Source: Micromonospora chokoriensis (GTDB lineage Bacteria; Actinomycetota; Actinomycetes; Mycobacteriales; Micromonosporaceae). From it: 64,000 nucleotides of DNA. The position numbers were made by a program, and so were the translations under genes. Shown here in pieces: positions 19,401-37,575 of this stretch. The number at the start of each line of letters is the position of its first letter. Position 1 is the stretch's first letter. Location: contig NZ_JOAN01000002.1 of the NCBI RefSeq assembly GCF_000718555.1, positions 248,001 through 312,000 of the forward strand, given 5' to 3'. The notes beneath the pieces are model-generated. The model searched no databases. It saw only the letters and a program-made list of their open reading frames with translations, and was not told where the DNA came from.

Positions 19401-22400
19401 GCTCAACCGGTTGCCGGACGTGTCGTACGAGAACTTGGTGAGGTACTTGTTGTCCGCCTCGGACTGCGACCTGGCGTCCCGAATCTCGATCAATTGATCG
19501 TTTCGCGGGTCTGGGGTCAGGTTCACCGTTGTGGCGTCGGGCCAGTACTTGTAGTAGGTGGTGTCGCACCACTCCTGATCACGGCATACAGTGGATCGGA
19601 TGGTGTTGCCCCGTACGTCTCGGCCGGTCACCGACTTCATGCCGAGCGGGTCGTACACGACCGACTCGTACCCGCCGATGTCGTAGCCGAACGACGTGGT
19701 CTGTCCCAACACGTCGGTCGAGGCGACCATCCGGCCGCCGTTCAGCAGGTCGAAAACCTGCTTCGACGTTTTTCCAGTCGGGTCAGTGATCGCCACGCTC
19801 GACACCGGGGTCAACGTCGGTGTTGATCCGACGGCCAGGCTGCTCTTCGACGCCTTGAAGTGCGAGTCAACCTCGAACGGTGACAGCGTTCGGTTGTAGT
19901 AAGCAAACTCGGCGATGTTGCCCTTGAAGTAGCTCACGTCGCCAGACGAACCGGGCCACGACCTGGTGGTGCCGGCACCAATGTAGGAGTGCGCGGCGTT
20001 AGTAGCGACCATCGCCGCGGTTCCGCCCACGATGGTGTTGTCTAGGTAGAGCAACTGAAGGGTGTTCGACGCCGACAGGACGACGTGGTGCCACTGTCCG
20101 TCGTTGACCTTCTTCGTCGAAGTCACCGGTGCCGCGCTGCCAGTCCAGAAACCCCCGCGAAGGTACCCGTCGGCGCCGACGTACAGCGCTGGCGTCCAGC
20201 TAGCGGCGATCGTCGCGCCTAGTTGCGCAAACTGGTACGAGTAGAGCACGCCGCTGGCGGCGTGGTTCGCCGGGACCTTGAACCACATCTCGACCGTGGC
20301 CGCCTCAGACTCCGGGTAAGCCGTACCCGGGTAAGCCGAATTCATGGGGTCGTAAGGCTTTACGTACGAGGAGGTGCCGTTGAAGACAGCGCCGTAGGTG
20401 TCCGGGAACGGACTGGTGCTATTCGGCTGCGCGGTGTTAAACGAGACGTTGTTGTAACGAGCCTCGTGGCTGTGAACCACGTTGACGGCGTCTACCGGTG
20501 CCCCAATATCACCCAAACGCCAGTAGTCAGTCGGCTGGGAGCCGAGCACTGAGGAAACATAGACCTGACTAGAGCCGTACGCGGTTGGGGCACCGATCTT
20601 CCACACGCCGCCGTGCTCGTCGGTGACCGTGCTGGTCCGACCACTGACCGAGTCGTAGGAGACCTGCGCCTGCACGCGGCCCGCCTCGCTCGTCACCTTG
20701 GACAGCTGAGCGGTGCCGGTCTTGCCCGACGCATGCATCGCCGAGACCATCGGCACGGTCAGAGCCTTGTTGAAGAAGGCGACATCAGCGATCGAGCCGG
20801 TGAAGTAGGTGGCTTTGGCAGTGGTGTGCGGCTGGTCCGGCCAGGCGCCACCGAGGAAACCGGCGCCGACAATACTCTTTGTCGCATCGAGCGCGCTGAG
20901 CCTGATGGTGCCGGTCAGCGTTGCAACCTGCGCACCGTCCAGGTAGAGCTGCTGATTACCACCGTTGCCGGCCAACGCGACATGATGCCACTGGCCATCG
21001 GTCACCGTGTTCGGCGACGACATGGCCGCGCCGTCGGTTCCCGTGGGGAACGCGCCGTGCAACTTGCCGTCCGAGCCGACGTACAGAGCCGGGTTGTACT
21101 TACCAGTCGTGGTCGCGCCCGGCGCAACCGTGTCCCGTTGATAGCTGAACAGGACGCCAGTGGGCGTGCTGGTCCGGAACCACATGCTGATCGACTGGTA
21201 GGACGTCTCGGCGACGGGCTTAGACGGGAGTGCGACAAGCGAGTTCGTGCCGTTGAACTCCGCAGAGGTTGACGTCGAGTCGGCCAGCGGCGACGAGCCA
21301 CCCAGGGTGACATTGTTGTACGTCGCGTTGTCAGTGCCGTCGTTGGACAGCACGGAGCTGGCCGCTGCTGCCGTACCGGCAGCCTCGTTCAACCGCCAGA
21401 ACGAGTACGGGGCCGTGTTCAGCACGGTGGTGGCGTGCTGGGAGACCCGGGTGTACTCATAGTTGGCGCAGGCGGTGGTTGTTCCCGGCGGGCAGACCTT
21501 GGTCAACAAGTCGTTGTCGTACGTGTAATTCCAGGTCAGTGCCGTGCTCGCGGAGCCCACCACCACCGGATCCGTGGTGACGGACGAGACGTGCGGGTAC
21601 ACCGAATTCGGCGGCGTGGACCAAGCGATGGACAGCGTCCGGTTCGACGTTGATTTCATCTGATCGGCGCGGCCGCTCGCGTCGTAGCGGAACGTAACGG
21701 CTCTTCCAGACGAGTCGGTGACCTTGGTAATGGCGTAGACACCGGTGCCGGCGGACCGCGTGAACTCGTACGCGGTGGCATCCTTGTCGGTGAGTGAATA
21801 CCCACCAGTGATGGATTTGAAGACCGAGAAGCGGCCCGACGGTGCCATGAAGGTGCCGTCGTTGTTGCGACCGAACGCGACCTCCTGCCCGTTCGGATAA
21901 CGCACGTTCACGGTTTGCAGGACACCCGCGCCGTCGACGACGTCCCGGGCCCGCATGTCCAAGACAGAAGACCAGCCGCTAGCGAAGGCACCATCAACCC
22001 TGGTGTCGAGGCTGTTGTAGTCACGCGTGATGGATAGGGCCGGGCCTGCAGCGGCTACCTGAGCGTCCGTATCCGACGAGGTGTAGTTACCGATGTTCGC
22101 CTCGTAACCCTTTCCACCGTTCTGTGCCAACGTCGACGTCACCATCGGTTGCGGCACTTGGGTGGTGAAGGCCGACTTTGTCGTCGGCGTAGGGTTCTTG
22201 GACGAGAAATCATCAACCTCGACCGCGTACGTGTAGGTCTTCCCCCAGGAGAGAACGCCCGCGGGGACCTTCCACACGCCGGGAACCCAACCGGATGAGG
22301 TGACCTGCGTACCTTGGTCGTTGTAGACGAGGAAGTTGAAGCGAAAACCCTTGTTGGGCCAACTGTCCGGGTCGTGGCCACCAGCCGCCAACTCCGGAGT

Positions 22401-24200
22401 CAGCGTACCGACCACGTAGTTGTTCGAGGGGTACTGCGAATCGACCTGCGGCGGCACGTTGTCGCTGTAAGTGATATCAATGAACGGATCACACCGGATA
22501 CTGCCTCGCGTTGGATGCGCGCAAAAAACATTCGCGTCCACCGAAGTGAACCGTTTCCACGCGACCGTGTCCGTCTCCGACGCGGTCAACGCCAGGCCGA
22601 AGTTGCCACCCCCGGTTACCCATTCGTTGACGCCCGCAGTATCGAGAGGCACCGCGACCCAGGTACCGACATTTCGGGGCGGTGGATAGGTGGTGTTATT
22701 GCAGGCAGCCGTGCTGCTCGGCGAGGCCTTACCGATCGATTCGGAATAGGCGGGGAAAGTGTCATACTTCACCGAAGATGACCAGTTGGCGGTGACTCGG
22801 CGGACATCGAATTCCCGAGGTTCACAAGGGCCGCCCGTGCCCTGGTAGGTCATGAACAGGTTAAGCGTGGCCGCGCTGAGTCGCTTCCCAGCATATGAGG
22901 TAGCAAACGTCGGGAACGGCAGCAGCGCCTTCGCCTTGCCAGGAACACCGTTGTCCAATCCGAACGTTCCGACCGCGACGTTATTTTCTTCCTTCCGATC
23001 CGACTCTGAAACCCCCGACTGAACGTACGTATCGCCGCTTGTCGTAGAGATCGTCGGATCCAGAACTACTGGAAACTTTCGCGCCTTATCCTGGAGCCAT
23101 GCGACGTCAACTGACATCTTGAGGATAGGCACTTCGCCGACGGTGTCGATTGAATAGCGGATGTCGTGCGACATCGCACCCGCTCCTGATACGTCAACCG
23201 CCGCATCCTCCATGTAGCCGATCGGCATGGTGGCGACAATGGTGCTCTCGTCATCGACGAACTCGACCGCGCCGCCCTCGCCGACCCGGGCCGTCAAACC
23301 CTTGAGGCGCAGCGGAAACTCGTACGTCGTCGGCACGTCGGCCGACCGGAAGACCAAGGTCTCCTTGACCCCGTCGGCCATGGCGGCCAGTTCCAAGTCC
23401 ACATTCCGGTAGACGCCGGCGTACCGCGCGATCTCCCGATCCACCGAGGGCAGACCGATCGAGGCTCCAGATAGCGAATAGGCCAACTCATGACCGGTGT
23501 CGAACGTCAGCCGAACGAGGTCGTCTGCGGCGACTGAGTCTGCGATCGATCCGCCGGATCGGCTTGTCGAGCCGATGTCGGATCGCGTCAGCCCATCGGC
23601 GAAACTCAGTCCGAACGAGTTCGCGGTCACCTGCGGACGCCCCTGCGACCCCAGCGCCAGAGTGCTGTCGATTGTCCGCCAGGACCCATCGGCAGCCTTG
23701 AAGTTGACCGGGTGTTCGTGGACCCAGCGCGTGTATGAGCCATCTGCGTTCTGGAGGAGGTCCCCGTTCTGCGAGGCCGCAGAAGACACCGGCTTGCTCA
23801 TCGACGCACTAAAACCGGCCCCGGCCGCAGCGGTGGTCACCGTCTTCGCATCGGCCCGATGCGGCTCATAGCGCTTCAGTTCGCCCCTGGCTCTGTCTTT
23901 TCCTTCGCCCAAGTCGTTTACCCGCTTGGCAGGAACGTAATGCCCGCTATCCGGGGAGACTCCACGCTTTTGCTGAGGAGTTGGCGGATCTGCAAAAGCC
24001 CAGGACGGGCGAGTAGACAATAGATTCCACAGCGACGTCAGGGGGTTACCCCCATGACCTGGGGGAACCGCGTCCACCGGAACCGCCACGGTTAGCGTCA
24101 GCGTCACGAAGACGGCAATGCGCCGAGTCAGATGCCCAACCGCGCGTCTCGGCCAGACACGCTCGTTGAACGCGCCGGCGGGCGCAGACCAACCACGCAT
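13422..24200 (-). CDS. Rhs-family polymorphic toxin with LamG-like, HINT and C-terminal deaminase-like domains
   Basis: The frame opens at 24314, but ATG at 24200 has a GGGGGAG ribosome site and starts a secretion signal (AVFVTLTLTVAVPVDA), giving 3592 residues. In order: a DNRLRE-like stalk domain (about 380-540), three LamG-like lectin folds (about 1000-1140, 1285-1440, 2035-2170), dozens of YD/Rhs repeats, and the Rhs-associated core (WYNPDTAQFDSRDTV, near 3000). A hydrophobic stretch (VAVGALCATGVGCLILAGAV) precedes a HINT protease from CLTGEHSFDPATRVLMADG (about 3291) to SVLVHNN (about 3457). The tip has HTE (near 3512) and PCSWC (near 3557), the zinc and catalytic signature of deaminase-fold toxins. 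HINT self-cleavage should free the tip. The exact deaminase family is unassigned. Confidence 0.88.
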   Translation of the reverse strand: MRGWSAPAGAFNERVWPRRAVGHLTRRIAVFVTLTLTVAVPVDAVPPGHGGNPLTSLWNLLSTRPSWAFADPPTPQQKRGVSPDSGHYVPAKRVNDLGEGKDRARGELKRYEPHRADAKTVTTAAAGAGFSASMSKPVSSAASQNGDLLQNADGSYTRWVHEHPVNFKAADGSWRTIDSTLALGSQGRPQVTANSFGLSFADGLTRSDIGSTSRSGGSIADSVAADDLVRLTFDTGHELAYSLSGASIGLPSVDREIARYAGVYRNVDLELAAMADGVKETLVFRSADVPTTYEFPLRLKGLTARVGEGGAVEFVDDESTIVATMPIGYMEDAAVDVSGAGAMSHDIRYSIDTVGEVPILKMSVDVAWLQDKARKFPVVLDPTISTTSGDTYVQSGVSESDRKEENNVAVGTFGLDNGVPGKAKALLPFPTFATSYAGKRLSAATLNLFMTYQGTGGPCEPREFDVRRVTANWSSSVKYDTFPAYSESIGKASPSSTAACNNTTYPPPRNVGTWVAVPLDTAGVNEWVTGGGNFGLALTASETDTVAWKRFTSVDANVFCAHPTRGSIRCDPFIDITYSDNVPPQVDSQYPSNNYVVGTLTPELAAGGHDPDSWPNKGFRFNFLVYNDQGTQVTSSGWVPGVWKVPAGVLSWGKTYTYAVEVDDFSSKNPTPTTKSAFTTQVPQPMVTSTLAQNGGKGYEANIGNYTSSDTDAQVAAAGPALSITRDYNSLDTRVDGAFASGWSSVLDMRARDVVDGAGVLQTVNVRYPNGQEVAFGRNNDGTFMAPSGRFSVFKSITGGYSLTDKDATAYEFTRSAGTGVYAITKVTDSSGRAVTFRYDASGRADQMKSTSNRTLSIAWSTPPNSVYPHVSSVTTDPVVVGSASTALTWNYTYDNDLLTKVCPPGTTTACANYEYTRVSQHATTVLNTAPYSFWRLNEAAGTAAAASSVLSNDGTDNATYNNVTLGGSSPLADSTSTSAEFNGTNSLVALPSKPVAETSYQSISMWFRTSTPTGVLFSYQRDTVAPGATTTGKYNPALYVGSDGKLHGAFPTGTDGAAMSSPNTVTDGQWHHVALAGNGGNQQLYLDGAQVATLTGTIRLSALDATKSIVGAGFLGGAWPDQPHTTAKATYFTGSIADVAFFNKALTVPMVSAMHASGKTGTAQLSKVTSEAGRVQAQVSYDSVSGRTSTVTDEHGGVWKIGAPTAYGSSQVYVSSVLGSQPTDYWRLGDIGAPVDAVNVVHSHEARYNNVSFNTAQPNSTSPFPDTYGAVFNGTSSYVKPYDPMNSAYPGTAYPESEAATVEMWFKVPANHAASGVLYSYQFAQLGATIAASWTPALYVGADGYLRGGFWTGSAAPVTSTKKVNDGQWHHVVLSASNTLQLLYLDNTIVGGTAAMVATNAAHSYIGAGTTRSWPGSSGDVSYFKGNIAEFAYYNRTLSPFEVDSHFKASKSSLAVGSTPTLTPVSSVAITDPTGKTSKQVFDLLNGGRMVASTDVLGQTTSFGYDIGGYESVVYDPLGMKSVTGRDVRGNTIRSTVCRDQEWCDTTYYKYWPDATTVNLTPDPRNDQLIEIRDARSQSEADNKYLTKFSYDTSGNRLSMTTPPIPGYPSGRTTAMTYTTATTAAVGGGTTPAGLPLTTKSPGNAQQSTEYNAAGDVVRVTDAAGLATEFGYDGLGRTLTKTVKAGAPTGDLTTTFVYDSDGQVIQQVEPPVLNQVTGATHTAKSTTTYDSDGNVTYRKVEDTTGGDAYRDASSFYNSLGQVVKTVDAVGTVTLFEYDLYGNNTKTVTCDSSPSPSTSCPAGDRLRTVEEVYDAVGQQLTTTVTGQDGTATKVSSKSYYANGNLASDTDAMNWVTRYEYDLNDNVTRVTRTDGVKTHVQEENSYDAVGNPVSRRSDNGANWATFEYDEANRLRKSVLQPYDLHRVTSYQYDADDHPISTRNSVGQLETPLQTVDNTYDPMGNVTSKSVSVNHSSGPSGWWKMEEPGPAWEAFDSSPSQQTLASWNGAIPRSGGAAVFNRTTLYRTQQPVLNTTQSYSVSAWVKLNNFNTYQTFVGEGGSKHGAFFLQYSKGLNKWAFISPNSDSASPSAYYSASSAASLTTNTWVHLVGVFDSGTKAMTLYVNGAQGGTGTNPTPFNAITPLGVGGIMMGPNEGDYVDGAIDNVQIFQRALSAAEASTLYGAGNGRSTDTTVTGQRLTTKYTVDKRGLATAMTDPMGNLTSYEYDSAGQLAKVVAPSVSTETFGGSGPVPAVPVSRTGYNTFGEATETQDPLTNTVTTRYDAVGRPVETLLPGYTPPGGTPITDAKTITVYDKLSQVASTTDPLGKTTTYGYDSLGNTVRATDPLGKVSTAAYDKVGDQIESVDPTGAKTTATYDFLGRKLTSSQVVRQPTPTTNTTSYDYGSGAYGTTPAAGPWLQKVTSPDGVVTSSTYNWLGEPVTVKDGASNVTTTEYDGLGRPVKTTLADDTKQTLSYDGAGRVLQTQNLDASNAVLTTQSMGYDDNGNVTSVRDARNTTTTFSYDALGRVTGEVQPVTATKSIGTSFGYDLAGKRTRFTDGRGNPFWTTYNSWGLPESQIEPSTTAFPSLADRTFTTSYDAAGRPKKQAMPGGVNVTNTYDDLGRIKQISGAGAEVATADRTFDYDDAGRLTSLSVPSGTNTLSYDDRGLPLTITGPNDNASFSYTRDGRMASRSDAAGTTNYTYDTAGRFKTATNPTTGINLTVGYNKVSLPATVTYGTNNNVRTLTYDALHRLKTDTVKTSSGAQTLGSITYGYDNNGNETSKVTTGFSGAGSNTYTYDLADRLETWTSGSTTTNYTYDDSGNRTKAGAKVFTYDARNQLTAQTGAGTYSYTARGTLRQTTVGTVNYATSSNAFGEVLSQQGTGGVTSTYLYDALGRAVRPGFKYSGLGNTLAQDNTATYTRGPEGDLLGVGSGAGAGSLYAWTDQHTDLVGLLTATGATLSASTTYNPLGVVTATSGMAGSLGYQSEWTDKTTGRVNMLARWYNPDTAQFDSRDTVANSPLPDSVTANRFQYGDANPLTTTDPTGHWGLKSLFKAAVKVVSNPVATYKAAVKTVAKAYNYVKTVAKTTAKKAISKGKKALNVVKETTVRWAKKKINTVKDAYHSANKCLSSGVGKCVKATAKKAVKSAVESVKSTVDAIKQDPWKFFASAAVGLVAAVAVGALCATGVGCLILAGAVAGAMSAGAGYMTDVAQGDEDFSWSGLAGNMIEGGLDGAWSAGASRLTGGLGAKLRGGSGGRAPGVSSRAAGGGGSPSSASQRSRSEERPSSGSGCLTGEHSFDPATRVLMADGSTKPIEDVDLGDEVVATDPVTGESASEKVTYLHVNIDDDLTDVTVRDGESGETSVLKTTEHHPFWDATDGRWVDAGQLTPGHRLLVHDDKRIEGDSTGAGMGGGGPGRTVTVVKVDDVDGSKTMRDLTVDNTHTYYVIAGSSSVLVHNNNQECPRPNHIAGHTRLDSSGSVRSGQEQTYFAGRQTAEEQAQGKWKGAMASHTEARATREAGSPWPYWVRGDDAALGRNPVEPGDTILLEGELPPCSWCQTAMEQAAEHTGANWVYTWQEEGFQQFWWRGPNS

Positions 24201-24446
24201 GACAGTTCTCCCCCATTGAGCCAGACTGCGCGGAAGCTTCCTGTAAACAAGCTGAAAACACAAGAGCGATTCGACGAAAGCGGCGCCACATCCCATTCGA
24301 CCAGCCATGATCACCTTCGGTTATCTCACCAGATGGGCACACATTTGGGACGGATGCGCTGCACGCTCAACGCGCGCGGTCTAGCCGCATGGCCTTTAAC
24401 TGCCTGCAGTACGATCCCCCAAACAGCACCGAACAGGAGACCACCG

Positions 24447-25469: not shown

Positions 25470-25559
25470 GCGCACGATCAATACTCGCCCTGCCGGCCTT
25501 GGCGGTCCGCAGTTGTGGGATCGACCCGCCGATGAACGCCAGTGGAAGGCAGAGGACCG

Positions 25560-26624
25560 ATGACTGAAGCTGTGCCGGTCACCCCCATCGCGGGTTTGAT
25601 AGTCGTCGGACCACGTTCAGAAAACCCGCAACTGCACGAGCTGCTGACCGAGCGCACCGCGCTCTGGCGGCAGGCGCGGATCACGACCGGTTCGGTGAGC
25701 GGTAAGCCGTGGACCGCCGGATCGGTCGAGGCTGCCGTGCGCGACGCCGTCCGATGCGTGGACGGGTCGGACGAGAGCACCGCGGCGATCGTGGACCCGG
25801 AGCATCGGGTCACCACACTGCTCGTACTGCTCGGTGAGGGCCGGACCCGTTGGACCGGGATTCGGAGCCTGACGGACCTCGAGTTGATGCCGACGGCTGC
25901 CCACGTACCGGGTGACGCCTTGGCGATTTTGGCACCGTGGGCCGGTTTGCTTGCTCCGGAGCCGCTCGCGGCACACGATTCGACACGATTCTCCGCAGCT
26001 GCGGTGCGGACGTCCGACCCCGCCCAGCCCCACCGCGGGCTCGGCTGGGCGACTCGGACGGACCTGGCGCTGCGGCACGCGATACTGGACAGCCTACGGT
26101 CGATGTCGTCGAACGCGGTTCCGACGGCTGGCCGCGCGGTGGCCGGCGCCTCGGGTGCGACGGAGTGGACGTGGCTTCTCGACGGCTCGCTCACCCTGCT
26201 GTCCGGGTACAGCCGGGACAGCCGGCGGCACTCCCTGCCGGACACCGGCTTCGACGTCGTCACCCGCCATATCCCGCAGTTCAGCGGGGCGCTGCGGCTC
26301 GCCGCCATCGTACGTCGGTCGTCCAGTGCCGTCGTGGCGGCAGCCTGGGGCCGGCAGAGCGAGGAGGCGATCGACTACGCCCTCACTGCGGCCCGGACCC
26401 GAGACCTGCTGCTCCCCACTACGTCCCAGGCAGCCGTCCCGAGCCCGCCGGAGACCGCTCCCCTGATCAGCGCCCTGTCCCCGGGCGACGTCCAGCGCCT
26501 GCTGCACGACATCCACGCCACCGTCTTCGGCACCTCCGGCCGGCGGGTGCTGGGGATCCGGGTCGCCGCCGACGCGCTGCTCGGCCCGCAGGACCTGGCC
26601 TGGGGGCCGGTCTGGCTCGGCTGA
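25560..26624 (+). CDS. RiPP-cluster protein of unknown function, possibly a degenerate YcaO-like protein
   Basis: ATG at 25560 (an in-frame ATG at 25542 is also possible); 354 residues. No motif is decisive. Parts resemble the order of a YcaO domain: HRGLGWATRTDLALRHAILD (around 160-180) recalls the GxGxx...AxxxAxxEAxER segment, and a later AAWGRQSEEAIDYALTAART recalls the C-terminal GRG..eeA region, but the ATP-binding Glu residues and the PxPxP tail seen in the two true YcaO genes are missing. It lies 135 bp upstream of the precursor gene in the same direction, so a role in peptide modification or precursor handling is plausible. Treat the YcaO resemblance as weak. Confidence 0.5.
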   Translation: MTEAVPVTPIAGLIVVGPRSENPQLHELLTERTALWRQARITTGSVSGKPWTAGSVEAAVRDAVRCVDGSDESTAAIVDPEHRVTTLLVLLGEGRTRWTGIRSLTDLELMPTAAHVPGDALAILAPWAGLLAPEPLAAHDSTRFSAAAVRTSDPAQPHRGLGWATRTDLALRHAILDSLRSMSSNAVPTAGRAVAGASGATEWTWLLDGSLTLLSGYSRDSRRHSLPDTGFDVVTRHIPQFSGALRLAAIVRRSSSAVVAAAWGRQSEEAIDYALTAARTRDLLLPTTSQAAVPSPPETAPLISALSPGDVQRLLHDIHATVFGTSGRRVLGIRVAADALLGPQDLAWGPVWLG

Positions 26625-26759: not shown

Positions 26760-26948
26760 ATGAACATCGACGACAAGACCAACCTGGCCGACCTGGCGAA
26801 CGAGATCCTCGAGCTCGAGTCGGAGACCTTCGAGATCTCGGACTACGCGGACGCGAGCGGCGTCCTGCTGGCGGTGGCGGCCTCGTGCAGCACCAGCTCC
26901 ACCAGCACCTGCTCCAGCACCACCAGCACCACCTCCTGCTCCGCCTGA
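26760..26948 (+). CDS. Thiopeptide/azole-type RiPP precursor peptide
   Basis: A GAGGAG ribosome site at 26749-26754 sits 5 bases before ATG. The product has 62 residues. Residues 1-41 are an acidic leader (ILELESETFEISDYADASG) of the thiazolylpeptide-precursor type, ending LLAVAA. Residues 42-62 form the core, SCSTSSTSTCSSTTSTTSCS plus a final Ala: 20 of 21 residues are Ser, Thr or Cys and can become azoles or dehydro-residues. Ser42 and Ser52/Ser53 have the spacing used for thiopeptide pyridine formation (positions 1 and 11-12). The exact leader cleavage site is inferred. A strong terminator follows within 45 bp, giving a short abundant transcript. Confidence 0.88.
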   Translation: MNIDDKTNLADLANEILELESETFEISDYADASGVLLAVAASCSTSSTSTCSSTTSTTSCSA

Positions 26949-27181: not shown

Positions 27182-29155
27182 TCAGGGGAACGGGTGCGGG
27201 ACTTTCCGAATGTCATCATCGGCCAGGTCGCTGGTGCTAAGGCCGGCCCGCCGAGGCGCGGTGCGCAGCCGGGGCATCTGCAGGGCCCGTTGCCTGGTCC
27301 AGCCGAAGTCGATCGGCAGCAGGCCGGGGACGATCGTGGACACCGTGTGCAGGCCCATCCGGCGCTGTTCCGGGGTGGTCTGGTCGACCACGATCACGTC
27401 GTGGCCGGCCCGTTCCAGCTCGCGCTGGCAGGCACGGAGGTCGAGCAGGAGGTCTCGGGAGTCCGGGTCGCCGGGGGGACGGATGTCCTGGATCGCGCAG
27501 TGGCCGGCCGGTTCGAGGTAGTTGCGGGCGTGCTGGGTCATCCGTGGCAGGCCGAACAGTTGGGGGTGGTCGCCCAGGTTGGCGCAGCGGGTGTAGTCGT
27601 CCGCCATGGCGTCGAGTTCGTCCCAGCGCTCGTTCACCTGCCGGGACAGGTGGGGAATGTAGGTGAGCACCTCCGACAGCGCACCCTCGACGGCCGTCTC
27701 CGGGTTGAGGCTGGCGCCGGCGGCGAAGGAGAGGGCGCCCGCGCCGCCGTCGCGGCGGACCGCGAGGCCGGTGACGACGGGTACGGCCAGGTCGACGCGG
27801 CTGTCGAAGGCGTGTACGTCGTACCCGCGGAAGGCCGCCCGGTCCACCATGGCGCGGATGGCGGGGCTGCGGCACGAGTCGAGGTCGATCTCGGTGAGCG
27901 CCAGGTTGCCGTACCAGCCGAGCAGGAACGCGTCGCGTTCGATGAGTTCGAGCAGACCGAAGAGGATCGCCTCCTCCAGGCAGCTGCCGATCGCGCAGCC
28001 GTTGGAGGACTCGTAGACGAAGTTGTCGTCGGCCTGCCCGGAGGCGTAGTACGTGAGGCGGGCTGGCACGAGCACGGGCCGGTCGTCGCGAAGGGAGTAA
28101 CCCCACACCCACGGGATCGGTCGGTCCGGGGCGAACGGATCGACCATCGGGTCGGTCCGGTACGTCTGCGCCGAGTACTCCCCGCAGCTGCGCGGGTCGA
28201 GCGCGGTGTCCCCGAGGTCGGTGTACGCGGCGACGATCGGCTCGGCCCGGCGTCGCTGGTGGGTGCCGGCGTACCGTTCGAGCCCTTCCAGATACGCGAG
28301 GTCCTTGCTGGTGCGGAAGGAATTGGCCTGCCCGCTCCAGCTGAAGTTGACAAGCCCCGCGTACCCGCGGATGAAGACGCTGCCGGTGACCGCGGAGGTG
28401 GTGGGCGAGGTGACGTCGAGCCAGGTGCCGGCGCCCAGGCTGCCGCAGACCGGGTTGGCCATCGCCCCGGTGGCCAGCGGGTACGACGTTGTCGAGGTGA
28501 GCCGGTAGCTGCCCGGGTCTGGCTTGGGGCGGGAGACCAGGTCGAGGGTGGCAAGTTGCGGGGTGGCCTCTTCCAGCGGCGCGCAGTTGGGGCAGAGCGG
28601 ATCGGTGAGCAGCGAGAAGGTCAGTACGTGCAGCGTCGCCAGGTCGATCCGGGTGACCTGCGGCAGGCTGAGGTCGGCGGTGGCGTGCCAGCCGCCGGCG
28701 GTCCGCCGGCCGACGACCCCGGACCGGCCGAGGACGGCCGCCTGGTACACCGACCAGACGGCGTCCACGACGTAGTCCGGGACGACCGGCCAGGTGCCGG
28801 CCGGGATCACGGTCCGGCCGTGTTCGAGGGCCTCCCGCTCCGATCTGGTCCGCAACCGCTGCCACCGCATCGCGAGGCACTGGCCGCAGGCCTGGGCGTC
28901 CGAGACGCCGCCCCACGGGCCGATGAGCACGGCCTGGGCGCTGAGATGCACGTCGGCGACGCCGCGTACGGGTGCGAGGCGGGTGGCGGGCGCACCGAAC
29001 ACGTCGATCGCGCCGACGGTCTGCACCGCCGGGCCGGGGCCGTAGGAGGCGTCCCCGACGTCGCGCCGGTACCGGTCGGTGAGCGCTTGCTGCAGGGTCA
29101 GCCGGGCTAGCTCCATCGGGATGGGGCGGGTGTCGGCTCGCGTCGTCGTGCTCAT
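27182..29155 (-). CDS. YcaO cyclodehydratase-type protein 1 (TOMM biosynthesis)
   Basis: ATG at 29155 overlaps the permease stop by 4 bases; the longer frame to 29671 is an artefact. It has 657 residues. The N-terminal third has a ThiF/TOMM-like region with zinc-type Cys pairs (ACGQC near 90, LCPNC near 190); the rest is a YcaO domain with the ATP/Mg site SNGCAIGSCLEEAILFGLLE then LIERDAF, and a proline-rich tail ending KVPHPFP. YcaO proteins use ATP to turn Cys, Ser or Thr into azolines. It is the last gene of the operon. The second copy at 37576 shares architecture and tail, suggesting divided labour, for example Cys against Ser/Thr. Confidence 0.88.
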   Translation of the reverse strand: MSTTTRADTRPIPMELARLTLQQALTDRYRRDVGDASYGPGPAVQTVGAIDVFGAPATRLAPVRGVADVHLSAQAVLIGPWGGVSDAQACGQCLAMRWQRLRTRSEREALEHGRTVIPAGTWPVVPDYVVDAVWSVYQAAVLGRSGVVGRRTAGGWHATADLSLPQVTRIDLATLHVLTFSLLTDPLCPNCAPLEEATPQLATLDLVSRPKPDPGSYRLTSTTSYPLATGAMANPVCGSLGAGTWLDVTSPTTSAVTGSVFIRGYAGLVNFSWSGQANSFRTSKDLAYLEGLERYAGTHQRRRAEPIVAAYTDLGDTALDPRSCGEYSAQTYRTDPMVDPFAPDRPIPWVWGYSLRDDRPVLVPARLTYYASGQADDNFVYESSNGCAIGSCLEEAILFGLLELIERDAFLLGWYGNLALTEIDLDSCRSPAIRAMVDRAAFRGYDVHAFDSRVDLAVPVVTGLAVRRDGGAGALSFAAGASLNPETAVEGALSEVLTYIPHLSRQVNERWDELDAMADDYTRCANLGDHPQLFGLPRMTQHARNYLEPAGHCAIQDIRPPGDPDSRDLLLDLRACQRELERAGHDVIVVDQTTPEQRRMGLHTVSTIVPGLLPIDFGWTRQRALQMPRLRTAPRRAGLSTSDLADDDIRKVPHPFP

Positions 29156-29907
29156 GAGTTGTTGCTCCAGCGAAAGGTCCGCACCGCGAGGACGCCGAAG
29201 ACGACTGTGAACCCGGCCAGGGCCGCGCTGCTCAGGCCGATTGTCGCGAGGTCGCCGCTGCCGGTGAGGGCGGTCGAGATGCCGTCGTTCATGTAGCGCA
29301 GCGGCAGGGCTCGGGAGATGTTCTGCAGCCAGGCGGGCATGAGATCGATCGGCAGGAACGAGCCGGACAGGAACGCCATCGGCACCATGATCGAGTTGGC
29401 GATGGCGGCGACGGCCTCGGGGGTGTTGGCGCGGGATCCGACGACGACGCCCATGGACAGGAACGCGGTGACGCCGAGCAGCAGCACGGGCAGGGCGAGC
29501 GGCCAACTGCCGGCGAGGCTGAGGCCGAACGCCGGCAGCAGGGCCACGCCGACGAAGAGCACGGCCTGCACCAGGCCGATCACCAGCGCGCCGGTGTAGC
29601 GGGAGGCGAGCACCGTGGTCAGCGGTGTGGGCGTCATCCGGATCAGGCGCAGGATGTCGTCGTTGCGCCACTGCATGAGCGTGAAGGCGATGCCGAAGAG
29701 GGCGGCGTTGCCGACGCCCCAGGAGAGCACGCCGGGTGCGATGTAGTCGATGTAGTTACGCCCGGAGCCCTCCACCTCCTGCCCCGCGAAGATCAGGCCG
29801 AAGACCACCAGGAAGAGCAGCGGGAAGGCGAAGGTGAAGAACACGGTGGTCTTGTCGCGTACGGATGCCTTGTAGTTGGCCGTGCTCAGCGCGGCGAATG
29901 CGGTCAT
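29152..29907 (-). CDS. ABC-2 type transporter permease of the RiPP cluster
   Basis: ATG at 29907 overlaps the ATPase stop by 4 bases; 251 residues. Six hydrophobic segments are visible (e.g. TVFFTFAFPLLFLVVFGLIF, VLFVGVALLPAFGLSLAG) in the ABC-2 membrane family order, with the conserved NxxxxPMAFLSGSFLP region in the C-terminal half. Together with the neighbouring ATPase it should export the finished peptide and may give self-protection. Its stop overlaps the YcaO start. Confidence 0.88.
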   Translation of the reverse strand: MTAFAALSTANYKASVRDKTTVFFTFAFPLLFLVVFGLIFAGQEVEGSGRNYIDYIAPGVLSWGVGNAALFGIAFTLMQWRNDDILRLIRMTPTPLTTVLASRYTGALVIGLVQAVLFVGVALLPAFGLSLAGSWPLALPVLLLGVTAFLSMGVVVGSRANTPEAVAAIANSIMVPMAFLSGSFLPIDLMPAWLQNISRALPLRYMNDGISTALTGSGDLATIGLSSAALAGFTVVFGVLAVRTFRWSNNS

Positions 29908-30872
29908 GAGCGCGTCTCCGATCCAGTGAGTTCCAGGTAGACGTCCTCGAGGGTGGCGGTGCGGGTCTGCACCTCGTCGAGGCCGATGAGGTCGCCGACG
30001 GCGGCCAGGGTGGCGCCGGCCGTGGTGGTCTCCAGCACGACGGAGCCCCCCTCGACGGTGACCCGGATGACGCCGGGAAGAGCCCCGGCCTGGTCGGTGG
30101 AGAGCTGACCGACCGGCACCATGACGCGGGTGGGTACGTGCGCCGCGCCGACGAGCCGGTGCGGGGTGTCGAGCGCGATGACGGCGCCGGTGACGACGAT
30201 GGCGACGCGGTCGCAGAGCGCCTCGGCCTCGTCGAGGTGGTGGGTGGTGTAGACGATCGTGCGGCCCTGCGCCTTCAGCTCGCGCAGCACCTGCCACAGG
30301 TCGCGGCGAGCCTGCGTGTCGAGTGCCGCGGTGGGCTCGTCGAGGAAGACCAGCTCCGGCTCGTGGATGAGGGCGCCGGCGATGGCGAGCCGCTGCCGCT
30401 GACCGCCGGAGAGATCCCCGACCCGCTTGTCCGCCTCCCCGGTCAGCCCGACCAGCTTCAGGGCGGGGCCGGCCGCCGTGGCCGGCAGCCCGTACAGGGC
30501 GGCCACCGTGGCAAGGTGCTCGCGGGCCGTCAGCCGGGCGAAGAACGCGCTCTTCTGGGTCTGCAACCCGAGGCGGGGGAGCAGTGCCACGTTGCGAGGC
30601 CAGGGCGACATCCCGAGCACCTGGATGGTGCCGGCGTCCGCCTGGCGCAGGCCCTCCATGATCTCGATCAGCGTCGTCTTGCCGGCGCCGTTGGGGCCGA
30701 GGATGCCGAAGAACTCTCCGCGTCGGATGGTCAGCGAGATGCCGTCGACGGCCTGCACGTCGCCGTAGCGCTTCCGGACGCCGTCCAACACGACGGCCGA
30801 CTCCGTGCCTGCCTCCACGATGGGTTCCTCACTGCTCGGTGTCGACGATTCGATGGCGTGCGTCGTGGTCAT
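29904..30872 (-). CDS. ABC transporter ATP-binding protein of the RiPP cluster
   Basis: ATG at 30872 overlaps the M50 gene stop by 4 bases; 322 residues. Walker A GPNGAGKTT (near 60), signature LSGGQRQRLA (near 155), Walker B LVFLDEPTAALD and the switch His in TTHHLDEA are intact. A C-terminal extension of about 90 residues is typical of the DrrA-type drug and antibiotic exporters. It partners the ABC-2 permease encoded next. Confidence 0.9.
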   Translation of the reverse strand: MTTTHAIESSTPSSEEPIVEAGTESAVVLDGVRKRYGDVQAVDGISLTIRRGEFFGILGPNGAGKTTLIEIMEGLRQADAGTIQVLGMSPWPRNVALLPRLGLQTQKSAFFARLTAREHLATVAALYGLPATAAGPALKLVGLTGEADKRVGDLSGGQRQRLAIAGALIHEPELVFLDEPTAALDTQARRDLWQVLRELKAQGRTIVYTTHHLDEAEALCDRVAIVVTGAVIALDTPHRLVGAAHVPTRVMVPVGQLSTDQAGALPGVIRVTVEGGSVVLETTTAGATLAAVGDLIGLDEVQTRTATLEDVYLELTGSETRS

Positions 30873-32101
30873 TTCTGGACCTCTCCTCTGCGGCCGTCGG
30901 CCGGCTTGCGGGTCCCCGTGAACGAGGTGCGGGGCACCACGAAACACATCCCGATCAGTACGGCCAGCCCGGCCGAGACGGCCCCGGCGACCGGCCCGAA
31001 GTGGGCGGTGGCAACACGGTGCGCGACCAGCGCGACGACCGTCACGATGCTCACGACCAGAGCCGCCCCGCCCAGGGCGTACGCGGCATAGGCGATCCGG
31101 GCGGCCCGGGGGTATCCCGCCAGGCCCGGTCCGCGGCCGACCAGGCCGGCCAGCGCCCGACCGGCGAAGCGCCGGCTGCCACTGGCGTAGCGCAGCATGC
31201 CCAGCGAGTGGGCGAGCATCTTGTAGCCGTCCATCGGTGGCAGCGGCAGCAGGAACAGCGCGGCCTGGGCGAGCCCCAGCAGCAGGAACGCGCCGAGCAG
31301 CGCCCGGGCCGGCTCCCCCGCCGGCAGCAACAGCCAGGCCGGCAGCACCGGCAGCAGCAACAGCAGGTTCACCAGGATGCCGGCCGACGCGGTCGTCACC
31401 TGCTGCCGGCGGGTTCGCAGGAACAGGTAGTCGTCGACTCGGCAGTACATGACGACCATGGGCAGCTGCCAGCGGATCCCGATCTCGCCGACCGTGCCGC
31501 CGAAGTGGTGCGCCACCACCCCGTGCCCCAGCTCGTGCAGGCCCATGGTGACCCACAGCGCGGTGGCGACCGCCATCAGCGCGAACGGGTCGTCGAGCAC
31601 CCGGGCGGTGTCGGCGACCAGGGCCGGCCCCTGCCACACCACAGCGGCCAGCATCAGCAGGATCGCCGCGCACGCCGGGACGAGGAATCCGCCCCGGAAG
31701 GTGAACCCGAAGAAGCGGTGCAGGCTGGCCGTGGTGGCCGTGGCGTCACTGACCAACCGCAGCGAGCCGCCGAGGAGTTTGCGCCGGGCCGGCAGCGGGT
31801 CGACCGTCGGCGCCGGGCACCCCTGGATGAGGCCCCGGGCGGCCAGCAGCCCGAGGAGCTGCTGCCAGGCGGCCGGGCCGAGCGAACGACCAAACTGCCG
31901 GCCGTACGCCTGCGCGATCTCCTCGCGCGACGTGACCCCGTCGAGCCGAACGAGGACGAAGTGCTCCTTCACCCCGATCTCGAACGTCTTGTCCGCAGCG
32001 GGATCCCGGACCAGGTACACCGACGTGGCGTCACGCAGGTAGCGCCCGCTGATCTGGATGTCGGCGCGCACCGCCGGCCCGGCGGCGACGGCGGTGCTCA
32101 T
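30869..32101 (-). CDS. M50-type membrane zinc protease with N-terminal PqqD-like domain
   Basis: ATG at 32101 overlaps the preceding stop by 4 bases; 410 residues. Residues about 20-95 (YLRDATSVYLVRDP, FVLVRLDGVTSREEIAQAY, LLGLLAARGLI) look like a PqqD/RRE-type winged helix that binds leader peptides. Next come at least six membrane segments with the zinc motif HELGHG (near 186) and the second site-2-protease motif LPLPPMDGYK in a later helix. The fusion suggests a membrane protease that captures the modified precursor and cuts off its leader before or during export by the adjacent ABC pair. Known M50 members cut in the membrane; a leader-peptidase role here is inference. Confidence 0.75.
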   Translation of the reverse strand: MSTAVAAGPAVRADIQISGRYLRDATSVYLVRDPAADKTFEIGVKEHFVLVRLDGVTSREEIAQAYGRQFGRSLGPAAWQQLLGLLAARGLIQGCPAPTVDPLPARRKLLGGSLRLVSDATATTASLHRFFGFTFRGGFLVPACAAILLMLAAVVWQGPALVADTARVLDDPFALMAVATALWVTMGLHELGHGVVAHHFGGTVGEIGIRWQLPMVVMYCRVDDYLFLRTRRQQVTTASAGILVNLLLLLPVLPAWLLLPAGEPARALLGAFLLLGLAQAALFLLPLPPMDGYKMLAHSLGMLRYASGSRRFAGRALAGLVGRGPGLAGYPRAARIAYAAYALGGAALVVSIVTVVALVAHRVATAHFGPVAGAVSAGLAVLIGMCFVVPRTSFTGTRKPADGRRGEVQK

Positions 32102-33156
32102 GCCCCCTCGCCATACTCGCGCAGCGCCCGGCCCAGCATGTACGACAGGTACGCCTCATCGGTGATCGTGACGTGCAGCCGGTTGTTGGTCATGTGCATG
32201 TACGGCGACAGCAGCAACGGCAGCGAGGTCTGCGGATCGGTGGGGATCTCGTCGCGGGTGTCGTCCCAGGAGCGGAACACGAGCTGCCCGCGCTCGGTCA
32301 GCTCGGCGGCCCGGCGGCGCAACTCAAGGCAGTGTTCGGCCCAGCCGCGCAGCAGCCCGGGCAGGTCCTGACCCCCGGTGGTCCGCAGCGAATGCCGGAT
32401 CTCGGCGAAACGTCGGCCGATCTCGGCACCCGTCGCGGCGTACTGCTGCTGGTATTCGTCGTCGCCCGCGTAGTTGGTGTCTGGGAACGCGCTGCGCCAG
32501 AACTTGTGGTACCGGTCCAGATAGTCGACCAGGTCGTCGGTCTCTGGCAGGAAGCACGCCGACATCACCATCATCAGCTGCGCCGACGTGCCGAGCAGCA
32601 CGGTGCGCAGGTGCAGGTTCTTCGTGCGGATGGCGTCGACGACCATCTCGCTGGAGTGCGCGAAGTGCCACTCGGCGAGCTCGATCCCGGCCGCGCCGCC
32701 GTACTTGCCGTACTCCGGCTCGTACGGCTCGTAGCTGTAGGTGTTGTTCTCGCGCAGGTTCATCCGGCCGTCGCCACGCAGGTAGCTGGACTTCTGGTCG
32801 GCGGAGAACTCCATGTCGAACAGGGAGTTGTAGAAGTCCTCCAGGAACCCGGCGTCGACCTGGTACAGCGCTGGCCGGACCCGCAGGTACTCGGTGATGG
32901 CCGCCTCCGCGCGCCGCTTCACCTCGGCGGTCGCCGCCACGGTCACTGGCTTGAGCCGCAGCCGGACGTGCGGCCCCTCGAGCCAGTAGTTGATGAAGAA
33001 GTGGCCCGCGATCAACCCATCGGCCTGGAGCCCGCCGATCAGCGGACGCACGCACTGCACGAGCAGCGGCTGCGGGTTGGCCGCGTAGAAGATGTGGATG
33101 GCCTGCCACTCGCCGGCTGCCACGTCCGTCACGGGGTCGATGAGGGTCTGCGTCAT
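32098..33156 (-). CDS. Thiopeptide-type bacteriocin biosynthesis protein (LanB C-terminal/pyridine synthase-like)
   Basis: ATG at 33156 overlaps the LanB stop by 4 bases; 352 residues. It opens WQAIHIFYAANPQPLLVQCV and has FFINYWLEGPHVRLRLKP near 75-90 and YEPEYGKYGGAAGIELAEW near 165-185, which match the SpaB-C/TIGR03891 fold shared by glutamate-elimination enzymes and thiopeptide pyridine synthases. Sequence alone cannot tell me which. Directly behind the split LanB, it most simply serves as the elimination half that turns glutamylated Ser/Thr into dehydro-residues. No second gene of this kind was found. Confidence 0.82.
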   Translation of the reverse strand: MTQTLIDPVTDVAAGEWQAIHIFYAANPQPLLVQCVRPLIGGLQADGLIAGHFFINYWLEGPHVRLRLKPVTVAATAEVKRRAEAAITEYLRVRPALYQVDAGFLEDFYNSLFDMEFSADQKSSYLRGDGRMNLRENNTYSYEPYEPEYGKYGGAAGIELAEWHFAHSSEMVVDAIRTKNLHLRTVLLGTSAQLMMVMSACFLPETDDLVDYLDRYHKFWRSAFPDTNYAGDDEYQQQYAATGAEIGRRFAEIRHSLRTTGGQDLPGLLRGWAEHCLELRRRAAELTERGQLVFRSWDDTRDEIPTDPQTSLPLLLSPYMHMTNNRLHVTITDEAYLSYMLGRALREYGEGA

Positions 33157-35933
33157 GGCTGCCCGTCCTGTCGCGTCGCGGGGGGAAGGATCGAAGGGGA
33201 ACGGAGGGTCTCGACGGCCAACTCGGCGACGTGTTCGCCGCGGCTGGACCGCACGTGCAGCGCGTCCTCGTCGGGGAGCATCTCCCGGAACACCACCCGC
33301 GCTCCGGGGCTCTGCAGCAGTCCGTCGAGGGCGTACAGGGAGAGGTAACTGGCGAAGTCCACGTACTGCGGCTTGCCGCTGCGCGATCGGCCGTCCCCGG
33401 CGGTCTCGGTGACGGTGGCGAACGTGCGGTCCGGCAGGCCGTGCGTCCGCCGCCAGCGCTGCCAGGCCAGGAACCAGTCCTCGTCGGCGACCTGCGGCGA
33501 CAGCCGAGGCAGGTCCGCACCGGCGACGGTCCAGGCCCGGCGGCTCAACACCAGGTTGCGATGGCGCACCCGGGGCCGGCACCGCACCCCGTCGCGCGGC
33601 TCCGCTTCGGGCACCCCGCCCCACAGGTTCACCGGGGCCAGCGCCGTCGGCGACAGCAGCAGCAGGGTCCGGGGGATCTCCGGAAGTGCCAGCGGCACCA
33701 GGTAGCCGAGGTAGACCGGGATGACCTCACGGCCCAGCCGGTGTGACCGCAGCACCAGGCGCTCCTCGGCCACGTCGTGCTCCAGGTAGAGATCGTCGAG
33801 GTGGAGTTGGTTCTCGGCCGGCACGGAGCTGGTCTCGCCCGGGCAGACGATCTGGTAGCGGGTCAGCCGCCCGTGCAGGTTGAGGTTGGTGACCACCGCG
33901 CCGCCGGTGATCTCCGCGAGGACGGCCCCGTCCGGTTCGATCTCCCCCGTCTGGCGCAGTAGCTGTTGCGCCAGCCCGTCCGGCTCCAGTTCGTCCGCCG
34001 GCGCGTCGAAGCAGTGCGTGAAGCGGCTGAACGGGAAGGACAACCCACCGTAGGACTGGTTCAGGACCGCGACCGGGTCACCGGGACGGTCCGCGAGCTG
34101 GACGAAGTGGCTCTGCGGGGCGAACCGGGTGGTCACCGGGGTCAGGTGCGCGGCGACGGCGTCGACCGTCTCCTCGTCGAGCCACACCTCCCCCGCGTCC
34201 GCGGCCCCGGCCCAGACCTCGCGCATCCGGACGACCAGCTCGCGGCGGGCATCGTCGAGGGCAGTGATGCTGGGCAACCGCAGCCAGTTCACCTCCGGGA
34301 CGTACTCGCCGTCCACGAACGACTTCGGACGCCCGTTGAACGACAGGTACTGGTCGAAGAAGTCCTCGTGGAAGTCGTGCACCAACTTCAACAGGTCATC
34401 GCAGCGCCCGCCGCGGCCGTACCGGGCCAGGAAGTACCCGTTGAACGTGATGCGCTGGGGCAGGGTCACGTCGAAGGCCGGCAGGATCCGCTCCACCGAC
34501 CGCAGCGAGTCCGCGAGCAGCCCGGACCACGCCTGCCGGTCGAGCACGAGGGCCTCGGCACCGGCTCGGACGTCCTCGTAGAGCAGGGTCCGCGGCAGCG
34601 TCGCGGCCTCGTCACCGAGGCTGATCTGCACCTCGTGCAGACTGGCGCGCAGCCGCCCGAGCAGCTCCCGGCGTTCGGTGTGACCCGCCAGCGCGTACCT
34701 GTCGACGCACGAGATGGGCTCGGTCAGCCCGTCGGCCAGCTCGTCCGCCCAGGGGCGCTCGATCGCCCGCAGGGCCTCCTGGAAGGCGCGCAGCGGGTCG
34801 CGGCTGTGCACGTCGGTCAGCAGCACCGGGAACTGGATCATGCCGAGGTGCAGGAGCGCGGCGAGGTACCTGTCGCACTCGTCGGCGCTCGCCCGCTCGG
34901 TGGCCCCGAGCCACTCGGCGAGCTGCCCGAACCGGACGCCCGGGGTGCTCTCCATCATCCGCAGCATGCGTTCGAGAACGCCCGTACGCTGCAGGAAGTA
35001 GAGCCGGTCGGAGGCCGCGTCGAAGGTCACCGCGGCGTTGTCGTCGCCCGTGGTGACCCAGCGGCGGACGAACCGGACCCGGTCTTCGTCGTTGCGCCAT
35101 CCGGTGGCCGCCTGGACCGGCAGGTCGGCGCGACGCTGTGGGTCGGCCAGGACGAGTTCGGCGAGCCGACCGAGCACGACCACGTTCAGCCGGGGATGGC
35201 TGGACCAGTCGTCGGCCACGGCCACCCGGTGCCCGGCGTCGGCGGCCTCGGCGAGCTGACCCACCCCGACCGCGGTGAGCGTGCTGAACGGGCTCGGCTT
35301 GCACGCGGTCCGGTACAGGTAGGACAGCACCGAACGGGTGATCCGCCGCTCCTTCTTGCCGGGTCGGTCGGCGCGGCCATCGATGAACGCGTCGAGCTGC
35401 GAATCCAGCGACGGCGAGGCGAGCAGCACACCTCGGCGCAGCCGGTCCTCGGCGGCCAGCTGGCGCAGCCGTGCTGTCGTGTCGGTCACCTCCGTGCCGA
35501 CGACCCGTCCGCCTTCGGCGCGCAGGTCGTCGAGCCTGCGCCGGGCCGTCAACCAGCTGGTGAGCTGCTCGGCGGCAGGGGCGTTGCGCCCTGCCAGCAG
35601 GCTGACGGCGGCAGCCACGTCCTGGGGCAGCCGGTTGTTGAACACCTCGCGGCGCAGCCGCAGCAGTTGCCGGCGGACCAGGTCGTCATCGTTGTCGTTG
35701 ACCATGCCGTGGAGCAGGTCGCTGAGGTGGCTCGCCGACTCGGCCAGCGACTCCTCCTCCTGCAACATCTCCTCGGCCCAGCGGCAACTGTCCGGGCAGC
35801 GAAGCGCCCCGACGGTGGCCAGGGGCAGGCCCGCGACCCGGGCCATCAGGCGGTTTTGCAGGCTCCAGCGGGTCTGCGCCGGTCTGCCGGCGACAAGTGC
35901 CGGTTGCAGGTCGGGTTCGGTGGTCAGGGTCAT
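33153..35933 (-). CDS. Lantibiotic dehydratase N-terminal type (tRNA-Glu-dependent Ser/Thr glutamylase)
   Basis: ATG at 35933 is chosen because GGAG lies 6 bases before it; an ATG at 35972, inside the preceding gene, is an alternative. It has 926 residues. The LanB signature region reads RTACKPSPFSTLTAVGVG (near 245), and the segment VVTNLNLHGRLTRYQIVCPG and the C-terminal FREMLPDEDALHVRS are typical of the Lant_dehydr_N domain. The enzyme activates Ser/Thr hydroxyls with glutamate from glutamyl-tRNA. The C-terminal elimination domain is absent and is supplied by the next gene, the split arrangement found in thiopeptide and goadsporin-type clusters. Confidence 0.87.
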   Translation of the reverse strand: MTLTTEPDLQPALVAGRPAQTRWSLQNRLMARVAGLPLATVGALRCPDSCRWAEEMLQEEESLAESASHLSDLLHGMVNDNDDDLVRRQLLRLRREVFNNRLPQDVAAAVSLLAGRNAPAAEQLTSWLTARRRLDDLRAEGGRVVGTEVTDTTARLRQLAAEDRLRRGVLLASPSLDSQLDAFIDGRADRPGKKERRITRSVLSYLYRTACKPSPFSTLTAVGVGQLAEAADAGHRVAVADDWSSHPRLNVVVLGRLAELVLADPQRRADLPVQAATGWRNDEDRVRFVRRWVTTGDDNAAVTFDAASDRLYFLQRTGVLERMLRMMESTPGVRFGQLAEWLGATERASADECDRYLAALLHLGMIQFPVLLTDVHSRDPLRAFQEALRAIERPWADELADGLTEPISCVDRYALAGHTERRELLGRLRASLHEVQISLGDEAATLPRTLLYEDVRAGAEALVLDRQAWSGLLADSLRSVERILPAFDVTLPQRITFNGYFLARYGRGGRCDDLLKLVHDFHEDFFDQYLSFNGRPKSFVDGEYVPEVNWLRLPSITALDDARRELVVRMREVWAGAADAGEVWLDEETVDAVAAHLTPVTTRFAPQSHFVQLADRPGDPVAVLNQSYGGLSFPFSRFTHCFDAPADELEPDGLAQQLLRQTGEIEPDGAVLAEITGGAVVTNLNLHGRLTRYQIVCPGETSSVPAENQLHLDDLYLEHDVAEERLVLRSHRLGREVIPVYLGYLVPLALPEIPRTLLLLSPTALAPVNLWGGVPEAEPRDGVRCRPRVRHRNLVLSRRAWTVAGADLPRLSPQVADEDWFLAWQRWRRTHGLPDRTFATVTETAGDGRSRSGKPQYVDFASYLSLYALDGLLQSPGARVVFREMLPDEDALHVRSSRGEHVAELAVETLRSPSILPPATRQDGQP

Positions 35934-35958
35934 CACGGACTCCGTTCGACTCGATTGA

Positions 35959-37539: not shown

Positions 37540-37575
37540 GTCGGTCCTTGTCTCCTCGCGTGGTGGTTCGCGCAC

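Follow-up and report, generated by a model that had tools for sequence, protein, structure and literature searches.

The precursor gene and its operon

The window examined here, a 64 kb stretch of the Micromonospora chokoriensis genome, contains a short open reading frame (ORF) at positions 26760–26948 of the plus strand. It is a real and probably active gene for the precursor of a ribosomally synthesised and post-translationally modified peptide (RiPP), whose product is made by the adjoining enzymes. The ORF runs from ATG to TGA over 62 codons, has an AGGAG-like ribosome site directly 5' of it, and translates as MNIDDKTNLADLANEILELESETFEISDYADASGVLLAVAASCSTSSTSTCSSTTSTTSCSA. Among its last 21 residues (SCSTSSTSTCSSTTSTTSCSA, 26883–26945) only the final Ala is not Ser, Thr or Cys, and Cys stands at positions 2, 10 and 19; an earlier reading of this DNA (the original prediction) had described both the gene and this composition correctly. 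When all six frames of the window were examined for open stretches of 30 residues or more, this was the only place where 20 consecutive residues included at least 16 Ser, Thr or Cys (here, 20/20). The leader-like part carries the motif EILELESETFEISDY (26802–26846), which ends in FEISDY and is followed by 33 residues. The 21-residue core proposed earlier holds as a Ser/Thr/Cys run, but its boundary was a guess, and the mature peptide may start upstream of 26883. A simple scan around the gene found no sigma-70 promoter or terminator.

The precursor matched the TIGR03892 model (thiazolylpeptide-type bacteriocin) at 41 bits, above the curated cut-off of 25; its NF033400 score of 20 bits was under the cut-off of 30. 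Pfam-A gave no family at E 0.01 (a DUF7438 match was insignificant, E 0.077), and the database listing for a near-identical protein (P0001) gives PF19409. A search of ~5.8 billion proteins with the precursor returned 137 matches at E ≤ 0.01, 120 of them listed. Many of the listed relatives, from Streptomyces, Kitasatospora, Micromonospora, Dactylosporangium, Actinokineospora and other genera, carry the NCBI name thiazolylpeptide-type bacteriocin, and 85/120 contain STCSSTTSTTSC. A chance low-complexity ORF was rejected on the TIGR03892 match, on synteny, and on the codon evidence given below.

The enzymes lie on the minus strand. From upstream to downstream, the genes encode a SARP-family regulator (BTAD, NB-ARC; 41727–43589), an F-type ocin-ThiF-like leader-binding protein with a YcaO-like C-terminal domain (F; 39482–41662), YcaO cyclodehydratase 2 (37576–39492, profile scans), a SagB-type FMN azoline dehydrogenase with two nitroreductase-like halves (35959–37575; TIGR03605, 147 bits), the LanB glutamylation protein (LanB-N, Lant_dehydr_N; 33153–35972; PF04738, related to 6ec7 and 9jhq), the LanB protein assigned to glutamate elimination by motifs and profile scores (LanB-C, Lant_dehydr_C; 32098–33156), an M50 membrane metalloprotease with HExxH, the probable leader peptidase (30869–32101; PF02163), a DrrA-type ABC transporter ATPase (29904–30872), a DrrB-type ABC-2 permease (29152–29907), and YcaO cyclodehydratase 1 (27182–29155; TIGR03604 350 bits, TIGR03882 79.5 bits). 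Each gene from F to YcaO 1 overlaps or directly adjoins its neighbour, and the precursor lies at the far end of the operon on the plus strand, together with a gene for a 360-amino-acid protein. The profile scans confirmed that genes for azole formation (YcaO), a dehydrogenase (SagB) and a dehydratase (LanB) lie alongside the precursor, as the original prediction had stated. The listed 926-amino-acid form of LanB-N suggests a start ~13 codons further downstream.

Named bacterial genomes were scanned with an alignment of 32 LanB-N proteins, and the best 80 of 161 loci were compared with the window. In 57/58 full-length loci all ten genes were arranged as in the window and shared a strand; the exception (L050) is cut off by a run of N that follows the ATPase. 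The SARP gene was found in 58/58. Both window YcaO proteins have a fused C-type domain and exceed the TIGR03604 and TIGR03882 cut-offs, as expected of the azoline-forming type with a leader-binding C domain. A PxPxP C-terminus marks azoline-forming YcaOs; both window proteins end in PHPFP, and this ending was present in 66/67 and 67/67 of the YcaO proteins when YcaO 1 and YcaO 2 were assigned by gene position (the one miss, L029, is a wrongly extended frame), so two working cyclodehydratases are likely. HExxH was present in 77/78 M50 relatives. Median identities to the window over 64 loci were 55.7% for LanB-N, 63.4% for LanB-C, 62.2% for SagB, 48.2% for F, 44.6% for M50, 68.7% and 69.0% for the ABC proteins, 52.4% for SARP, and 58.7% and 58.9% for the YcaO proteins (by position, 58.7% and 59.3%; 67 loci each).

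Conservation of the core

A precursor was found in 64/80 loci and in 56/58 full-length loci; with 5 additional copies the total was 69 (clusters L045, L068 and L100 hold 2–3 copies each). These precursors were chosen by their leader motif and Ser/Thr/Cys-rich tail, and the conservation figures below are therefore partly selected for. Fourteen of the 16 loci without a precursor were on short pieces (3.2–16.7 kb), and the 2 full-length ones are broken in sequence, L050 by N and L096 by a G/C run. In 66/69 cases the gene lies as in the window, downstream of the operon on the opposite strand; the other three (L067, L080, L086) precede the SARP gene.

The original prediction had not recognised the order of the core residues. 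Of the 69 precursors, which come from 64 named genomes, 1 was identical to the window core, 10 had one difference from it, 39 had two, 13 had three, and 6 had four to seven, so that 50/69 were within two of 21 places and 63/69 within three. By sequence, then, the peptide is the Micromonospora version of a precursor already encoded in many actinobacteria, and its core order is not new. Relative to the commonest core, 28/69 precursors were identical and another 28/69 had one difference. The exact window core also occurs in Micromonospora radicis (L029) and in protein P0040, the latter without the added tail length: after SDY the tail has 31 residues in 68/69 precursors and 33 in the window and M. 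radicis. Aligned on SCS and STSTCSSTTSTTSCSA on either side, the window sequence has a TS that the commonest core lacks, with AA replacing ST ahead of this insertion; its Cys 2, 10 and 19 are a small variant of the usual Cys 4, 10 and 19.

The median relative shared 19/21 core residues and 15/15 leader-motif residues with the window (64 loci; range for the motif, 13–15). Across 70 precursors, the window's included, 11/21 core positions never varied (T7, S8, T9, S11, T13, S15, T16, T17, S18, C19, A21), and the codons at these positions did vary. AGY and TCN codons were both used at each of the mostly-Ser positions 3, 5, 6, 8, 11, 12, 15, 18 and 20. Over 2080 genome pairs, core codon differences were 13793 synonymous versus 3047 amino-acid-changing, as compared with 6408 and 4546 for a leader stretch of 20 residues that has the motif at its end. 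Because the genomes are related, the pairs are not independent, and the precursors were motif-picked, so that these counts show a direction and are not a statistical test. The mainly synonymous change in the core suggests that selection acts on the peptide in this family. A second, Cys-richer conserved core, ICSSSTSTSSCSSCSTSSCCSCTSSSCSSTS, was identical in four genomes of one genus (L010, L012, L016, L017).

Proposed biosynthesis

We consider it likely that this precursor gives rise to a linear RiPP of the goadsporin/spongiicolazolicin sort that contains azoles and dehydroamino acids. In goadsporin-like linear azole-containing peptides (LAPs) with dehydroamino acids, glutamylation and elimination are assigned to two distinct LanB proteins and a cycloaddition enzyme is absent, and the cluster has this composition. 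We infer the reactions, their order and sites, the cleavage point and export as follows. The two YcaO proteins, delivered by the C and F leader-binding domains, would cyclise chosen Cys and Thr/Ser residues to azolines, and oxidation by SagB would yield azoles. Next, wherever a Ser/Thr immediately precedes an azole, the split LanB pair would glutamylate it and eliminate glutamate, giving dehydroalanine (Dha) or dehydrobutyrine (Dhb). The M50 protease would cut off the leader, and the product would leave the cell through the ABC transporter. At a guess, thiazole and oxazole formation may be split between the two YcaO enzymes. The product could serve as an antibiotic or signal toward other actinobacteria, a guess by analogy with goadsporin.

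In goadsporin, azoles are made first, and the dehydratase needs an azole directly after the Ser that is to be dehydrated (PMC5303826). Applying that rule, Dha only at a Ser preceding an azole, to the core yields a model of repeated triplets in which the first residue (Ser/Thr) would become Dha/Dhb, the second (Cys/Thr) an azole, and the third (Ser/Thr) would stay unchanged. The window core would then read S1-C2-S3, a TS spacer, S6-T7-S8, T9-C10-S11, S12-T13-T14, S15-T16-T17, S18-C19-S20 and A21, with about six azoles and six dehydrations. Modified to that extent, the peptide would have a calculated neutral monoisotopic mass of 2600.015 as a 31-residue tail beginning with ASGVLL, of 2528.978 if the first Ala is missing, and of 1747.509 as the 21-residue core; each value would fall by 20.026 with a seventh azole. 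The original prediction of a RiPP precursor whose product should be densely azole/dehydro-modified is supported; its suggestion that all 20 residues could be modified is disfavoured, because under the goadsporin rule (PMC5303826) some Ser/Thr are probably left unmodified. Taken alone, we see the triplet part of the model as evenly balanced between right and wrong.

Variation among the relatives lends the triplets modest support at the level of sequence. Each of the consensus azole places (4, 7, 10, 13, 16, 19) is preceded by Ser or Thr. Over 110 aligned proteins, places 7, 10, 13, 16 and 19 held only Cys, Ser or Thr, and place 4 held Leu, Ala or Phe in 6/110, all shortened cores. Where the triplets would leave a residue unmodified, other amino acids appeared at places 5 (Gly, Ala or Asp) and 20 (Ala). 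A test of Cys positions was suggestive: 97/124 Cys over positions 3–20 were in register (44 distinct cores from 110/120 listed proteins), a count that includes Cys19, present in all. Leaving out Cys19 and Cys10, the figure was 24/43 (35 distinct 20-residue cores with letters C/S/T/G/A/D, shortened cores excluded). The 10/120 proteins dropped from the alignment had differing ends; by eye, P0102, P0105 and P0116 among them keep the register and P0067 and P0109 do not.

Two observations count against this interpretation. Ala at place 12 would leave an azole without a preceding Dha, contrary to the triplets. In addition, the predicted fold of LanB-C is nearest to TbtD/PbtD (TbtD by Z), with no stand-alone elimination protein among the listed rows, a comparison of models that casts some doubt on LanB-C as an elimination protein.

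Comparison with known systems

The TIGR03892 precursors that neighbour the same ten-gene operon (Streptomyces, Actinacidiphila, Catellatospora, Micromonospora and others) share the leader motif, core, gene content and gene order of the window, which differs from them in having AASCSTS where the commonest core has STSCS, and in the additional 360-amino-acid gene. In gene content and chemistry, goadsporin (godA-H) resembles the proposed system, with YcaO, dehydrogenase and split LanB proteins and a linear product that carries azoles preceded by Dha. Its own features are a single cyclodehydratase (GodD), the peptidase-ABC GodB and the acetyltransferase GodH (PMC5303826), whereas the window has two YcaO proteins plus F, an M50 protease and a DrrAB-type ABC transporter. 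Profile scans found no GodB-like peptidase-ABC, the cluster's ABC proteins being DrrA/DrrB-like without a peptidase domain, and goadsporin itself was rejected as the class on this ground. No GodH-like N-acetyltransferase was present among the cluster genes scanned. Goadsporin-like self-resistance through a second SRP54 was also rejected, as none of the genome's SRP54 matches is near the cluster (one full ffh on contig C3, a weaker relative of 210 bits ~8 kb away that is probably FtsY, and a 21-bit match on C25).

Cox et al. 2015 describe goadsporin and the coryneazolisins as dehydratase-bearing thiazole/oxazole-modified microcins, both without a cycloaddition protein (PMC4603692). Like the window, the coryneazolisins have two D proteins, lanthipeptide-like dehydratases, no cycloaddition enzyme, and a core of nearly only Cys/Ser/Thr; compared by description only, they differ in belonging to a Corynebacterium family and in having Ile in the core (PMC4603692). 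Dehydrazoles are defined by a DUF4135 LanM-type dehydratase (PMC10676384), and this class was rejected because the cluster's dehydratase is of the LanB type. As to class I lanthipeptides, no LanC cyclase family match was seen among the cluster ORFs scanned. The core strings were absent from the text of the searched literature, figures and supplements lying outside that search.

Among linear products we lean slightly toward a special case, namely that the cluster is the Micromonospora orthologue of the spongiicolazolicin cluster, so that the product class would be one already characterised. Such clusters are reportedly, by the account of the original spongiicolazolicin authors, widespread in actinobacteria. 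Spongiicolazolicins A and B, from Streptomyces sp. CWH03, are linear azole peptides of similar length with a reported tripeptide azole pattern, compared here by length and reported pattern. Their 29 and 28 residues (PMC8838263) equal the consensus tail, ASEVVLAG plus the 21-residue core, with and without its first Ala; this length match may be coincidence, and the window tail is two residues longer. They are termed related to goadsporin (PMC10676384) and reported with a Dha-azole-X tripeptide pattern likened to nostatin's tripeptide blocks (PMC11583998). Both points favour the orthologue reading. Phazolicin is a different LAP. The tripeptide remark was applied to it as well, which lessens its weight. 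If the orthologue reading is true, the spongiicolazolicin precursor would end in a core like STSCSSTSTCSSTTSTTSCSA.

A bolder possibility, which we think unlikely, is an uncharacterised class of linear azole peptides built on a three-residue code (dehydro, azole, free hydroxyl). In contrast to RiPP cores in general, which are variable, its core would be nearly fixed across actinobacterial families for one conserved target or shared signal. It would then matter at each place whether the residue is Ser, Thr or Cys, and the window-type peptide would test the code by its two-residue insertion.

What stands out most in the analysis is how little the core varies; occurring while the enzymes drift (medians of 45–69% identity), this argues for a single conserved function. 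The family offers natural material for studying how YcaO and LanB enzymes split identical residues among azole, dehydro and unchanged states, and the two residues inserted in the window and in M. radicis provide a natural experiment on whether the enzymes count in threes.

Linear product or thiopeptide

Berninamycin-type thiopeptides have Ser/Thr-rich cores, and the original prediction had been reminded of them. They have YcaO and split LanB proteins in common with the window; the [4+2] cycloaddition protein that thiopeptides possess (PMC4603692) was not found in the cluster. There is only one Lant_dehydr_C protein in the cluster, and no protein of the cluster or genome was over the 325-bit cut-off of the pyridine synthase model NF045556, the genome's only match being LanB-C itself at 86–87 bits. 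Two loci did contain a synthase over the cut-off (479 and 444 bits), with HVRLY/HVRLF and without HxxxNR, and the proteins beside these synthases scored 94 and 68 bits and had HVRLR plus AHLxCNR. Window LanB-C has HVRLR plus HMTNNR, and this motif pair was found in 79/80 LanB-C relatives (HVRVR/HLRLR allowed), the remaining one being cut short. His961 (H961) of NisB is essential for dehydration (PMC4341554), and alignment through MibB equates it with the LanB-C motif His. In motifs and score, LanB-C is like the glutamate-elimination proteins and unlike the pyridine synthases. For this reason, and with no pyridine synthase found, a linear peptide with azoles and dehydroamino acids, of the goadsporin/spongiicolazolicin sort, is the most likely product in preference to a berninamycin-like macrocycle, so the berninamycin-type class was rejected.

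It is very improbable that the product is instead a thiopeptide, with LanB-C acting as a pyridine synthase or in a dual function and two Dha residues closing a macrocycle. The TbtD/PbtD-like fold noted above fits that idea, as do the matches of 21/21 alignment members to the pyridine synthase model and TIGR03891 (E ≤ 1e-5) and the name of the precursor model, thiopep_precurs. Moreover, HxxxNR is not a strict marker, being missing from some presumed elimination proteins of thiopeptide-like loci. However, the NF045556 score of LanB-C resembles those of the two partner proteins and not those of the two synthases over the cut-off, both synthases lack its HxRLR and HMxxNR pair, and a pyridine synthase alone would leave the cluster without an eliminating enzyme. 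Least probable of all is a decayed or silent cluster with no product, for which a related genome with LanB-N in two pieces might speak, but the window's operon genes are open and overlapping or abutting, and the core codon differences point to selection in the family.

Genomic context

LanB-N relatives occurred in 39/160 Micromonospora genomes, the window's own included. Four of the 39 were of the window type (at least 82% identity; one in two pieces), 14 were at 49–52%, and 21 at 38–44%. Window LanB-N was 91% identical to that of Micromonospora sp. NPDC050276. It was up to 59% identical to named Streptomyces proteins, and thus nearer to these than to the 14 Micromonospora relatives at 49–52%, which suggests transfer between genera. 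In genome G404 (contig C4:2674655-2677470) the two pieces of LanB-N had 94% and 97% identity, reflecting a frame break or an assembly fault.

Upstream of the precursor, the plus-strand gene at 25542–26624 encodes the 360-amino-acid protein, to which no family could be assigned; it had no family match, solved structures gave no better than E 0.72, and its structure model (pLDDT, the predicted local distance difference test score, of 38) was unusable. This gene was found in only 2/80 loci, both Micromonospora. Adjoining the cluster, the minus-strand gene at 13422–24314 encodes a 3630-amino-acid protein that combines RHS repeats with laminin-G domains and a pretoxin HINT domain and has a Pput_2613-like deaminase at its C-terminus. 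This domain make-up is polymorphic toxin-like. Elsewhere in the source genome, contig C5 (111–123 kb and 181–184 kb) holds two more YcaO genes and two more Lant_dehydr_C matches, so other RiPP clusters are probable in this genome. Near the SARP gene, a LuxR-type regulator is encoded on the plus strand (45274–46314); compared by eye, L050 has a similarly laid-out ORF next to its cluster (16058–17320, minus strand).
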